Source: Pedobacter sp. SYSU D00535 (GTDB taxonomy: Bacteria; Bacteroidota; Bacteroidia; Sphingobacteriales; Sphingobacteriaceae). From it: DNA of 64,000 nt. Each line of letters opens with the position of its first letter. The first letter of the stretch is position 1. Location: assembly GCF_017355855.1 (NCBI RefSeq), contig NZ_JAFEWD010000001.1, positions 248,001 to 312,000 on the forward strand. Reading direction: 5' to 3'. The translations under genes were made by a program, and so were the position numbers. Under the pieces are notes generated by a model that did no database searches, had not been told where the DNA came from, and saw only the letters and a list, made by a program, of their open reading frames with translations. Shown piece after piece: positions 4,320 through 56,278 of this stretch.

Positions 4320-5114
4320 TTATGCTAGCGTTTTTCCGACAGTAAAATGCTGCTTTTTCTGGCCCCGTAGCACGTTGATCACTTTCGCCGGTGTTTTCCA
4401 TTCAAAAAGATGCACCAGCCATGCTGTAAATTTTAAGAAGCCGCTTTGTCCTACAATGCTTTCCCCTAAGCGTAGTATCGTCTTATCCCGCTCTTCGATC
4501 ACCTGCGGACGCTCGCTCGCGGCTTTTTCGTACAGTTCCTCGGCGAAACACCAGGCACCGTCCCGGGCATTGTCAATGCTGAACTGGATCAGGACAGAGT
4601 TATTATTGCCGGCGTGTAGTCCCAGTAACGAGAGCAGGGGAGAAACGCGGCCCAAATCGCTCAATACCTGATAGGTGAGCGAAGATATGATGGTGTTGAT
4701 CATATCGAAGTCGTTATGAATGTCCTCCAGTGGGGTGTCGCCAGTCTCTTCTACCGTAGCTATCCCCAGATCCAGATTAATATGGGCACTCATGCCCAGC
4801 AACAGGTGTTGTAAGATCAGGGGCGACCGTTTTTCGGCCGTTTCGAATGCCAGCTTCCAGGAAGCGCTTGGTTCTTGACCGCTTTTCCATTGATGATAGG
4901 CCTCCAGATAACGATTCGCAAAAAGTACATCCAACCGTTCCATGCGCTGCCCGTCTTCAAATTGCTTCCGTTGAATGCCCTGTTTCACGCTTTCCGTAAC
5001 TTTCAGGTACAGAGCGGCGAAATAACCATTCCTGCTGTTGGTTCGGATGCTTTCACTGATAATTTGTTCCAGGGCTGTTATTACTTCATCAATAGTAGTC
5101 GACAGTTCAGGCAT
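4320..5114 (-). CDS. DUF5995 family protein
   Basis: This 264-residue protein has no signal peptide or membrane segment, so it is probably cytoplasmic. It resembles the DUF5995 family, marked here by the segment GMSAHINLDLG at residues 107-117 and an alpha-helical makeup throughout. The conserved His and Asp in that segment could be catalytic or metal-binding, but no function is established. The gene is convergent with the CNNM/CBS gene (194 bases apart) and divergent from the AraC-type regulator at 5324. That neighbour might regulate it, but no operator was recognised. Confidence 0.8.
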   Translation of the reverse strand: MPELSTTIDEVITALEQIISESIRTNSRNGYFAALYLKVTESVKQGIQRKQFEDGQRMERLDVLFANRYLEAYHQWKSGQEPSASWKLAFETAEKRSPLILQHLLLGMSAHINLDLGIATVEETGDTPLEDIHNDFDMINTIISSLTYQVLSDLGRVSPLLSLLGLHAGNNNSVLIQFSIDNARDGAWCFAEELYEKAASERPQVIEERDKTILRLGESIVGQSGFLKFTAWLVHLFEWKTPAKVINVLRGQKKQHFTVGKTLA

Positions 5115-5323
5115 GGTTGTACATTTGGTTGTGTGAAGATATGAAATCCCTGCCGATCTTACCCTATAGGCAACGCTGGCAACTATCCTCCTCGAGCAGG
5201 TGCGATGACACGCTATTAGTCTGGATAGTTGCCGGGAGTAATTCAGGAAGAACAGATCGATTTTTCAATGTAACAAAACCCAAAATCTGCTATCTTTCTA
5301 GAAATACCTAAAGATGGTTAACA

Positions 5324-6100
5324 ATGCAACCTGAAATCGTACCGGTTCCTGCGGACTTGTCCAGCTATGTGAATAACATCTTGGTGCTTAGAAGCGCTGG
5401 CAGCGCTAAAACCGTTCTTCCCTTTTATGCCGATGGGTACCCTGGGATCATCTATCAGCAGTCGAGCAAGGGCATCATCAGGCTACCGGATAATAAACCG
5501 CTTTCGCGATTTTTTGCCTATGGCCAAACGATACAGCCAATCGAGCTGGTAATTGAAGGGGATTTCCTGATCGTCATTTTTCAGCTTTTTCCGTTGACCT
5601 TGTTAAACCTGTTCGGCCTTAATCCCCAAAACCTGAACGATGATTGTTCCGACCTGCGTCGTATTGTGGAAACGGAGGGGCAAACTATCTTTGATAAGCT
5701 CCAACTTTTTGCTGAGCCCGCTGAACTCATCGCAATTCTGTCGAACTTCCTCAGAAACTCAATTAAGAACAATCCCCGACAGCTGGACCAGCGGATACGC
5801 AAATCGGTAGAACTGATCATCGCCGAAAAAGGAACGATACCTATGAAAAAAGTGCTGGAAGCAGCGAATTGTTCCGAACGCACCTTTCAGCGCCAGTTCA
5901 AAAATCAGATTGGTGTTAACCCAAAACAATTTGCCAGGATGATCCAGTTCCAGCACTCGTACATGGAGCTTATAGAAAGGGAACGAGCGACCCCGGAACT
6001 AATATTCGAAAATGGCTTTAGCGATCAATCGCATTTTATTAAAACCATCAGGAGATTTACCGGAGAAACACCGTCCTATCATAGAAAGAAAGACATTTGA
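5324..6100 (+). CDS. AraC family transcriptional regulator
   Basis: The 258-residue protein has an N-terminal beta-rich domain (about 1-115, DUF6597-like, starting QPEIVPVPADLSSYVNNILV) and a C-terminal AraC double helix-turn-helix at about 155-255. The latter carries the typical segments KKVLEAANCSERTFQRQFK and ENGFSDQSHFIKTIRRFTG. It should be a cytoplasmic DNA-binding regulator. The N-terminal domain is of the kind found in many Bacteroidota regulators with unknown effectors. It lies 70 bases before the NAD(P)-binding protein gene and may control it; a TAGCTTTG box at 6144-6151 gives that gene its own likely promoter. Confidence 0.92.
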   Translation: MQPEIVPVPADLSSYVNNILVLRSAGSAKTVLPFYADGYPGIIYQQSSKGIIRLPDNKPLSRFFAYGQTIQPIELVIEGDFLIVIFQLFPLTLLNLFGLNPQNLNDDCSDLRRIVETEGQTIFDKLQLFAEPAELIAILSNFLRNSIKNNPRQLDQRIRKSVELIIAEKGTIPMKKVLEAANCSERTFQRQFKNQIGVNPKQFARMIQFQHSYMELIERERATPELIFENGFSDQSHFIKTIRRFTGETPSYHRKKDI

Positions 6101-6143
6101 TACGATTGACGGTTTTTTACAATTCGGGCAACCGCGGCCCAAC

Positions 6144-6151
6144 TAGCTTTG
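6144..6151 (+). promoter_or_regulatory. Likely -7 box of the NAD(P)-binding protein gene
   Basis: TAGCTTTG fits TAnnTTTG and lies 20 bases before the ATG at 6171. No good TTG element was found at the expected upstream distance, so the site is supported by the -7 box only. Confidence 0.4.
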
Positions 6152-6170
6152 AATAGTTAAATACAATACT

Positions 6171-6794
6171 ATGAAAGTTGTCATATTTGGATCAACAGGA
6201 TCAATCGGCTGCCACCTGACACAACAGGCCTTAGACCAAGGGCACACGGTTACAGCATTCGCACGCAGTCCCGAAAAATTAGAAAGCTTAAAAGCGCCAA
6301 ATCTACACTTGTTTACAGGCGACGTGTTAGAGCCGGATGCTGTAAGCGCGGCAATTGAAGGACAAGATGTTGTGCTCTGCGCCTTGGGAGCAGGAAGAAG
6401 GGGAAAAGTTCGTGCCCGAGGTACAGAGCACATTATTAAGGCGATGGAAAGACATGGTGTTAAAAGGCTGATCTGCCAGACAACGCTGGGTTGCGGAGAG
6501 AGCTGGGGAAACCTGAATTTCTTTTGGAAAAGGATTATGTTCGGCTGGTTTATCAAAGAGGCTTTCCAGGATCACGAATTGCAGGAGAAACATATAAAAC
6601 AGAGCAATCTGGAATGGACTATCATTCGGCCAGCTGCCTTTACCAATGCATTCAAGAGAGACTACAAGCACGGCTTCTCCACTCTTGAGCCTTCCCTAAG
6701 TTTAAAAATTGGCAGGGCCGATGTCGCAGATTTCATGCTTCAGCAAATTCAGCAGACAGAATACCTTAGAAAAACACCTGCATTAAGCTATTGA
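6171..6794 (+). CDS. NAD(P)-binding protein, NmrA/atypical SDR type
   Basis: The 207-residue protein opens with a Rossmann beta-alpha-beta unit containing GSTGSIG at residues 7-13, followed by alternating strands and helices typical of the NAD(P)H-binding (NmrA-like, atypical short-chain dehydrogenase) family. The segment TIIRPAAFTNAFKRD near residue 145 corresponds to the conserved RP motif of these proteins. There is no canonical YxxxK catalytic pair, as is usual in this branch. The substrate is unknown; relatives act as redox sensors or ketone/quinone reductases. It follows the AraC gene on the same strand and may be its target. Confidence 0.85.
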   Translation: MKVVIFGSTGSIGCHLTQQALDQGHTVTAFARSPEKLESLKAPNLHLFTGDVLEPDAVSAAIEGQDVVLCALGAGRRGKVRARGTEHIIKAMERHGVKRLICQTTLGCGESWGNLNFFWKRIMFGWFIKEAFQDHELQEKHIKQSNLEWTIIRPAAFTNAFKRDYKHGFSTLEPSLSLKIGRADVADFMLQQIQQTEYLRKTPALSY

Positions 6795-54934: not shown

Positions 54935-54966
54935 AAGGTCGTGGCTTTCTGCTACGGCCTTTTTTT
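54935..54966 (+). terminator. Terminator of the GH105 gene
   Basis: Arms 54935-54945 and 54951-54961 form an 11-bp stem that includes two G-T wobbles and a five-base loop, followed by a T run to 54966. It is 26 bases after the stop. Confidence 0.8.
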
Positions 54967-55048: not shown

Positions 55049-56278
55049 ATGCCTTTGAAAATGAAACAAATATTAAGAGCACACCCACTACTGTTCATCA
55101 ACGTCTTCTTATTTGTCCTAGCTATTTTAGTGCTGCCCAATATCTTTAATGCAAGGGAAGAACGAGCTTTTTCTGATGAGACGCGCCTGCAAGAAGCTAA
55201 AGAAGAAGCACGGCGAAGGCCAGGTGCCGATTCGATGGATGTTATACCGGGATCGTTCTACAAACGCAACGCGCTCGTTCAAGCTATTTTAGGATCCGCC
55301 TACCGAAATGTGTGGCAGCAGCCCGTGCGCTTGCCAGTGCTTCGTTTAAATAGCGCTCAGGGTGGACTTACTCCTATAGAGTTTAGTGGAGGAATGCAAA
55401 CAATAGGCGTTAGAGCCAGGGACACACTGGGGCGAATTTGGGCTATACGTTCTATTAACAAGGACCAGTCAGCCGCCTTGCCTGAATTCTTGCGATTTAC
55501 CATCCTCCGCCCCATGTTCCGTGATCAGGCGGCCTCTCTAAACCCGTATGGGGTGCTTGTTGCGATGAACTTATCGCAGAAACTGGGAGTTTCGGATAGC
55601 GAAGCAAGGCTCTACTACTTTCCTTATGATACAAGCTCGGGGAAATATAACGACCGGATGGCAGGAAGAGCAGTAATGTTAACACGTTACCAAAACAGCA
55701 GGAGAGCGTTAGCTGATGCGGACACAATCAAAATGCTCGATACAGAGGAAATGCTGAAGCTCGCGAAAACGCGGTGGGTCCCACTTGATACGCAACTTTA
55801 TCTTCGGTGGAGATTATTCGACATTCTCATATCCGACTGGGATCGGCATGAGGGCAACTGGAAGTGGGCCTTACTAAAAAGGGCAGGGAAGGAGTTTATT
55901 ATCCCCCTTCCTGTGGACCGAGACATGGCTTTCTACAAGTTTGGCGACGGGCTGCTGAATTGGGTTTCTTCGGCCTTTGTTAAAAAACTCCAATCTTTCA
56001 CGCCCAATTATGAAAGTATAGAGGGACTGGTCGCTCAATCAAAAACGCTGGATCTTGCTATCCTGCGCAAGCAGAAAAAAGAGAGATTTCTCCGCGAAGC
56101 GAAATTTATCCAGCAGACGCTGGACAAGGCGGCTATTTCAAGCGCCTTCCGGCAATATCCTCCTAATGTATACAAGCTGATCGGGGCCGAACATGAAGAA
56201 ATTTTTGAGGTTAGATTGAAAAATTTAGACGAAGCAGCGAGCGAATTCTTTAGCTTGTTACAAAAAGAAGCAGAGTAG
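55049..56278 (+). CDS. Exported protein with kinase-fold-like DxDRHxxNW motif
   Basis: The 409-residue protein has one N-terminal membrane segment (about 12-31), so the bulk is probably periplasmic. No named family is certain. The core carries DWDRHEGNW at 263-271 and PVDRDMAFY at 288-296, with WAIRSINKD at 131-139. This order resembles the catalytic loop, the metal-binding DFG-like motif and the ATP-binding Lys strand of atypical kinases (HipA/PI4K/Fam20C-type). Similar motifs occur in Bacteroidota fusion proteins with phosphoesterase and surface-antigen domains, from memory. A secreted kinase-like enzyme is a hypothesis. ATG at 55061 is an alternative start. Confidence 0.7.
   Translation: MPLKMKQILRAHPLLFINVFLFVLAILVLPNIFNAREERAFSDETRLQEAKEEARRRPGADSMDVIPGSFYKRNALVQAILGSAYRNVWQQPVRLPVLRLNSAQGGLTPIEFSGGMQTIGVRARDTLGRIWAIRSINKDQSAALPEFLRFTILRPMFRDQAASLNPYGVLVAMNLSQKLGVSDSEARLYYFPYDTSSGKYNDRMAGRAVMLTRYQNSRRALADADTIKMLDTEEMLKLAKTRWVPLDTQLYLRWRLFDILISDWDRHEGNWKWALLKRAGKEFIIPLPVDRDMAFYKFGDGLLNWVSSAFVKKLQSFTPNYESIEGLVAQSKTLDLAILRKQKKERFLREAKFIQQTLDKAAISSAFRQYPPNVYKLIGAEHEEIFEVRLKNLDEAASEFFSLLQKEAE

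Follow-up and report, generated by a model that had tools for sequence, protein, structure and literature searches.

Does a bacterium of the Bacteroidota carry a kinase that works outside its cytoplasm? The question is raised by a 409-residue protein, here the window protein, encoded in a stretch of 64,000 nucleotides from Pedobacter sp. SYSU D00535, the whole of which we call the window. From the sequence alone, an earlier note had described a stand-alone exported protein that mirrors HipA and Fam20C in the motifs DWDRHEGNW and PVDRD, preceded by Lys138. The open reading frame, both motifs and the lysine are found at the positions in Table 1, in agreement with that note.

Table 1. Features of the gene, its product and related loci. 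Positions are those of the window except where a locus is named; residues are those of the window protein.
Feature	Position	Strand	Evidence
Terminator-like hairpin, 11 pairs and a T run, separating the window gene from the GH88 gene upstream	54935..54961	+	
Gene of the stand-alone kinase-fold protein (409 aa, ATG start)	55049..56278	+	ORF translation
Alternative start, Met5	55061	+	Comparison with the start of the G002 homologue
N-terminal membrane helix, residues 13-32	55085..55144	+	Hydropathy; helix 13-32 in AlphaFold model
Predicted kinase-fold domain, about residues 61-409	55229..56275	+	Profile matches and AlphaFold model
SGGMQT, residues 113-118, matching the GGGxQT turn of the family, which lies between two strands of the N-lobe	55385..55402	+	
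R134 to K138, both invariant	55448..55462	+	69/69 distinct sequences
D159, invariant acidic residue in the next helix (153-163)	55523..55525	+	69/69; AlphaFold model
DWDRHEGNW, residues 263-271, predicted catalytic loop	55835..55861	+	Conservation; register with CotH and HipA
PVDRD, residues 288-292, predicted metal-binding motif	55910..55924	+	69/69 each for D290 and D292; CotH register
Hymenobacter-type pairs	L037, L052, L074, L078, L088: KIN ORFs near 4600-6600	both	
Hymenobacter-type pairs	L198 3129-8148; L199 3436-6775	both	

The gene may in fact start at the Met5 codon, because the reading frame of a homologue from the same genus (genome G002; 52% identical and also stand-alone) begins, as listed, at the equivalent of that residue. 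The pair differs by pN 0.343 and pS 0.823, the latter saturated, which fits purifying selection. The window protein has zero cysteines and a single strong hydrophobic segment, bearing out the one N-terminal membrane segment of the earlier note: the 19-residue Kyte-Doolittle mean reaches 2.66 at residues 14-32, and its highest value past residue 50 is 0.76. Three basic residues (K4, K6 and R10) precede the helix, from which we infer an N-in/C-out orientation by the positive-inside rule. With this anchor, and with relatives that carry lipoprotein-like N termini (judged by eye) or outer-membrane barrels, the window protein likely resides outside the cytoplasm. The export claimed in the earlier note is therefore likely on these grounds.

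The window protein is strongly predicted to have a two-lobed kinase-like fold. Its AlphaFold model, built on an 80-sequence alignment, reached pLDDT 91.4 and pTM 0.89; a second model, of the kinase-like domain of the fused relative L044, was built without the window protein and reached pLDDT 94.1. In VIA, CotH (5jda; Z 15.1, r.m.s.d. 4.1, 251 residues aligned) and PI4K-IIbeta (9hhm; Z 14.5, r.m.s.d. 4.2, 248 aligned) were tied as nearest folds of the window model, with CtkA (3akk; Z 13.8, r.m.s.d. 4.4, 233 aligned) and HipA (4pu4; Z 11.8, r.m.s.d. 4.6, 218 aligned) after them. The corresponding Z scores of the L044 domain were 15.0 for PI4K-IIbeta (r.m.s.d. 4.5, 262 aligned), 14.9 for CotH (4.0, 253), 14.0 for CtkA (4.5, 240), 11.5 for HipA (4.5, 223) and 10.7 for Fam20C (5.0, 236), and for both models the first 14 ranks were held exclusively by CotH, PI4K-II and CtkA. 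Foldseek placed CtkA first for the window model (E 5.4e-6) and PI4K-IIalpha next (8.5e-5), followed by CotH (9.5e-4), Fam20C (1.1e-3) and HipA (1.2e-3); the TM-scores of the best match are low (0.36/0.47, r.m.s.d. >7). The fold call of the earlier note is well supported, whereas its choice of relatives shifts: HipA and Fam20C share the kinase-like fold at a greater distance than CotH, PI4K-II and CtkA.

Sequence libraries are silent on this domain, which we name KIN. At E <= 1 the window protein matches no Pfam family, the CotH, HipA_C, Fam20C and PI3/PI4-kinase models included; searches of NCBIfam and of PDB sequences likewise gave no match, and both PF08757 (CotH) and HipA_C have 0 matches in the window's genome. 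Neither library searched, Pfam or NCBIfam, holds a model for the domain. A Pfam scan of 80 KIN members yielded 16 weak, scattered families, the most frequent of them in 3 members. On the G002 homologue a LepB N-terminal-domain match (E 0.025; 14.7 bits, with the cut-off at 25) is only suggestive; in the available part of PMC9758233, LepB clusters with FAM20 and CotH.

Profile comparisons point in the same direction as the models at low probability. With hhalign, KIN scored 31.5 against the HipA_C profile (this phylum; p 0.0013, probability 18.1%), a value reached by 0/60 block-shuffles, and 27.0 against the CotH profile (p 0.0089, probability 4.5%), reached by 4/60; unrelated profiles, of the calcineurin-like phosphoesterase (MPE) and of the barrel, scored 13.9 and 13.6. 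The CotH profile comprised 28 of 30 loci and the HipA profile 14 of 17; L138 and L161 were left out, as were L119 and L147, which were empty, and L153, which has stops. Because four of the 60 shuffles equal or better the CotH score, which is not significant, we dropped membership in CotH by sequence and claim likeness of fold. These alignments place the predicted catalytic loop in register with the loops of both CotH and HipA; for the DRD motif this is true of CotH and not of HipA. A profile search of the PDB gave a sub-threshold CtkA match (E 0.57) that aligns the same catalytic loop; it ranked second, behind a match of the spore germination protein YaaH (E 0.24) to another region of the profile.

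The nearest known systems each differ from the window protein. Type II PI4-kinases, which presumably share a DRxxxNW-type loop with KIN, are eukaryotic lipid kinases and gave no sequence match in the PDB search. Fam20C acts outside the cytosol and has what we take to be a DRH-type loop like that of KIN, but it is an animal Golgi enzyme, a more distant fold match and without a Pfam match here. CtkA, the top Foldseek match, and HipA, whose profile score exceeds all 60 shuffles yet comes with low probability and no Pfam match, differ from the window protein in that it is membrane anchored; no HTH domain was found by Pfam among 20 neighbouring ORFs scanned. CotH shares the fold and, in register, the catalytic loop and DxD region. 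It is a spore-coat kinase, whereas KIN is a Gram-negative envelope family often fused to an MPE domain and a barrel, and neither its Pfam model nor its weak profile score ties it to the window protein. According to the available text of PMC7821199, the kinase-like fold of CotH is a distant relative of Fam20C, and a D228Q variant is described as inactive.

By sequence, the window protein belongs to a common kinase-fold family whose members are mostly fused, and it represents the stand-alone form. It carries the family motifs GGGxQT (as SGGMQT), RxxxK, DWDRH and DRD, matches the 80-row KIN profile, in which it is itself included, at E 4.2e-110, and as sole query reaches E 1.0e-57 with the best of its fused relatives. 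KIN occurs in 295/399 genomes of the window's taxonomic family and in 114/296 genomes of its phylum. Judging by record titles, further members belong to Gemmatimonadetes, Chlorobi and Ignavibacteria, and one to a Deltaproteobacteria bin. Short forms are rare. In 60 related genomes there are 35 KIN matches, spread over 22 genomes; 33 of them lie within ORFs of 840-1856 aa. The two exceptions, both short, are the copies of the window and of G002, and no others are short among the matches listed for the whole taxonomic family. Across the phylum, 14 of 141 matches sit in short ORFs (414-586 aa), two of these being split clusters, and one further short piece is cut off at a contig end. Separately, six matches (genomes G432, G433, G453, G483, G545 and G652; ORFs of 698-887 aa) cover no more than the C-terminal half of the profile, at 37-125 bits, and are possibly, on sequence, a diverged branch with a different N-lobe. 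What had been called a stand-alone protein is thus indeed single-domain, but it belongs to a family that is large and mostly fused.

The fused architecture is seen in the same genome. Its long paralogue L024 has, in one chain, a lipoprotein-like N terminus (by eye), PF00149 at 90-304, KIN and an Omp85 barrel at 995-1276, and its MPE motifs GD, GDN, GNHD and GHEH appear intact by eye. A census of 80 named loci, found through motif patterns, gave 44 MPE-KIN-barrel proteins, 26 KIN-barrel proteins and ten loci without a barrel; of these, eight are stand-alone, while L039 precedes a barrel encoded by its own ORF and L091 extends beyond the end of its contig. Additional MPE-matching ORFs accompany 10/80 loci. 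Six are separate same-strand MPE genes directly upstream, at 6/26 KIN-barrel loci (L033, L050, L058, L084, L085 and L096); at L071 and L103 the match is an adjoining MPE-KIN ORF cut off at the sequence end, and at L098 and L110 it consists of pieces of one MPE split between frames. Two more loci, L200 (841-4829) and L201 (2949-7094), have KIN, MPE and an Omp85-like barrel as adjoining separate genes, in that order. This repeated fusion or neighbourhood suggests that KIN and MPE have opposite activities on one class of substrate. Neither PF00149 nor the barrel is found by Pfam in the 409-residue window protein, and a Pfam scan of a selection of 20 neighbouring window ORFs gave no MPE match.

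The fused relatives thereby have the domain pair of a subfamily already named. Heinz and Lithgow (2014), in the available text of PMC4104836, define a 'Metallo' Omp85 subfamily by PF00149 plus an Omp85 barrel and read PF00149 as a metalloprotease domain; the word 'kinase' is absent from the main text. Our literature search, in which subscription journals were thinly covered and which was only partly aimed at this point, found no description of a kinase-like domain in MPE-Omp85 proteins, and none of the sought terms was found in PMC12578637 (Bacteroidota BAM) or PMC8262856 (HipA phylogeny).

How the stand-alone form arose was examined in a tree of 78 rows, made by a quick method with no bootstrap and using 35 of the 80 genome-contig loci (every third and the short ones). 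The window protein and the G002 homologue pair at support 100 and join stand-alone forms of Rufibacter, Hymenobacter and Sporocytophaga in a 15-row clade, mostly Hymenobacteraceae, with support 88 (not starred); L024 groups with other fused proteins of its taxonomic family. Five stand-alone forms of family f26 (same class; perhaps Flavobacteriaceae) group elsewhere, among fused proteins, so the stand-alone form probably arose more than once. The f26 proteins L192-L196 (426-433 aa) have a C-terminal CFxC motif; the window protein has none. All seven Hymenobacter-type loci examined, including L198 and L199, which group with Hymenobacter in the tree, hold adjoining stand-alone copies on opposite strands, at least one with DWDRH and one with DWSRR. 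In the DWSRR copies the predicted catalytic Asp is lost. The pairs resemble the kinase/pseudokinase pairing of Fam20C and Fam20A described in the available part of PMC7948968.

Does the window protein itself retain what a kinase would need? Conservation in our A3 alignment is biased because its loci came from DWDRH or PRDRDQ patterns, and residues were therefore recounted on 69 distinct sequences (of 73 matches) from loci that protein or profile searches had recovered, a set still biased towards best-scoring loci, part of them reached via the A3 profile, at a cut of E 1e-15 and 250 residues. R134, K138, D159, D258, D290 and D292 are present in 69/69, D265 in 66/69 and H267 in 67/69. Position 270 is Gln in 66/69 and Asn in 3/69, the window protein among the latter. 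Four of the residues expected by the earlier note to be conserved (Asp265, His267, Asp290 and Asp292) are so; Asn270 is not, although homologues keep the motifs as DxDRHxx[QN]W and DRD. Lys138, placed by that note on a basic strand, lies at or just past the end of the third N-lobe strand (130-135) of the window model; in the L044 domain model, strand 74-82 takes in R78 and K82, the equivalents of R134 and K138. Because relatives from protein or profile search keep the motifs and pN is below pS, the motif pattern is more than chance.

The window protein retains R134, K138, D159, D265, H267, N270, D290 and D292. Transferring to them the roles that we take the matching residues to have in HipA, CotH and PI4K-II, D265 is the likely catalytic base, position 270 and D290 are likely metal ligands and K138 or R134 the likely phosphate anchor; SGGMQT is possibly the nucleotide loop. 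These residues also bear on whether the protein is a catalytically dead kinase fold that binds a ligand or partner in the periplasm, as a pseudokinase or scaffold. Three points favour that reading: the near-invariant Glu at position 212 (55682-55684), present in 67/69 members, has given way to Thr in the window protein and to Ile in its G002 counterpart; the compartment is poor in ATP; and each of the seven Hymenobacter-type loci has its DWSRR copy. Pure scaffolding, however, would not need D265 and the DRD aspartates at the frequencies counted above, or the full set kept in the window protein, and we consider this reading unlikely.

We know of no ATP available in the Gram-negative periplasm, and the phosphate donor is the largest weakness of a periplasmic phosphotransferase. 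The same difficulty would be eased if the kinase fold performed other chemistry or drew on another donor, by AMP transfer or with a non-ATP extracytoplasmic phosphate donor. AMP transfer exists among kinase folds, SelO being an example, and the prevalence of Gln over Asn at position 270 would be in keeping with such a departure. The arrangement of DxDRHxx[NQ]W and DxD is nevertheless like that of ordinary phosphotransferases, which leaves this the least probable of the alternatives we considered.

Positions 22446-58672 of the window form a plant cell-wall degradation region, with SusD/TonB-dependent receptor, apiosidase-like, GH28, two GH43, glucuronyl-esterase-like, GH88 and GH35 genes. By Pfam, the neighbours of the window gene include GH43, a glucuronyl-esterase-like protein, an enolase-superfamily protein, GH88 and GH35; SusD with the TonB-dependent receptor, GH28 and the second GH43 lie further off. 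The surroundings suggest that the window protein might be a sugar or glycan kinase serving these genes, and in G002 an enolase-superfamily gene (84% identical to the window's), an SDR gene and KIN follow one another on one strand, KIN third. Fam20B, in the available part of PMC7948968, is a glycan kinase. The terminator-like hairpin, found by a consensus that matched 4 sites in the region against 2.3 expected from shuffles, stands between GH88 and the window gene and suggests that the two are transcribed separately; it weakens an operon with the sugar genes. Matches to the Bacteroidota -33/-7 promoter pattern numbered 2 in the window against 2.37 expected, none of them near the window gene. 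On its other side the G002 copy is flanked by a 171-aa ORF and then DUF2339 and DUF3999 genes, and genome G001, which shares the genus, has only long KIN ORFs although it carries two close homologues (84% and 83%) of the enolase-superfamily gene. The window gene is only weakly linked to the sugar genes around it, and in view of the hairpin and of the G001 homologues without a stand-alone KIN we regard a sugar-kinase role as a minor rival, decidedly unlikely.

Our preferred reading, to which we give a probability of about 0.6, is that the window protein is an inner-membrane-anchored, periplasm-facing kinase-fold phosphotransferase acting on an envelope substrate, the stand-alone form of KIN. 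The fold, conservation, family, architecture and anchor come from computation; its orientation, catalysis, donor and substrate and the pairing with MPE are what we infer. A nucleotide and a divalent metal would be bound in the cleft between N- and C-lobes through R134/K138, D290, D292 and N270, and D265 would serve in passing phosphate, or else a nucleotide moiety, on to a protein, glycan or lipid of the envelope. In the fused form, which is the common one, dephosphorylation of substrates of this kind would fall to the linked MPE. Low Foldseek TM-scores, low hhalign probabilities, the loss of Glu212 in the window lineage and the absence of an MPE match among the 20 neighbouring ORFs scanned weaken this reading.

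The larger finding concerns KIN as a whole: this kinase-fold family of envelope proteins is common, and the libraries searched contain no model of it. Extracytoplasmic phosphorylation is well established in animals and, to our knowledge, little described in Gram-negative bacteria. We suggest tentatively that Bacteroidota and some neighbouring phyla may have a widespread, unrecognized extracytoplasmic phosphorylation system, in which a periplasmic kinase domain, fused to or beside a phosphoesterase and an Omp85-type barrel, would modify and reset an envelope substrate; the stand-alone kinases and the active/degenerate pairs of Hymenobacter would then be derived branches. The window protein is a convenient member for testing because it is single-domain and cysteine-free. 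If KIN is active, the question of the phosphate donor is raised, and a periplasmic kinase would be present in many Bacteroidota, often attached both to a phosphatase of its own and to a barrel in the outer membrane.
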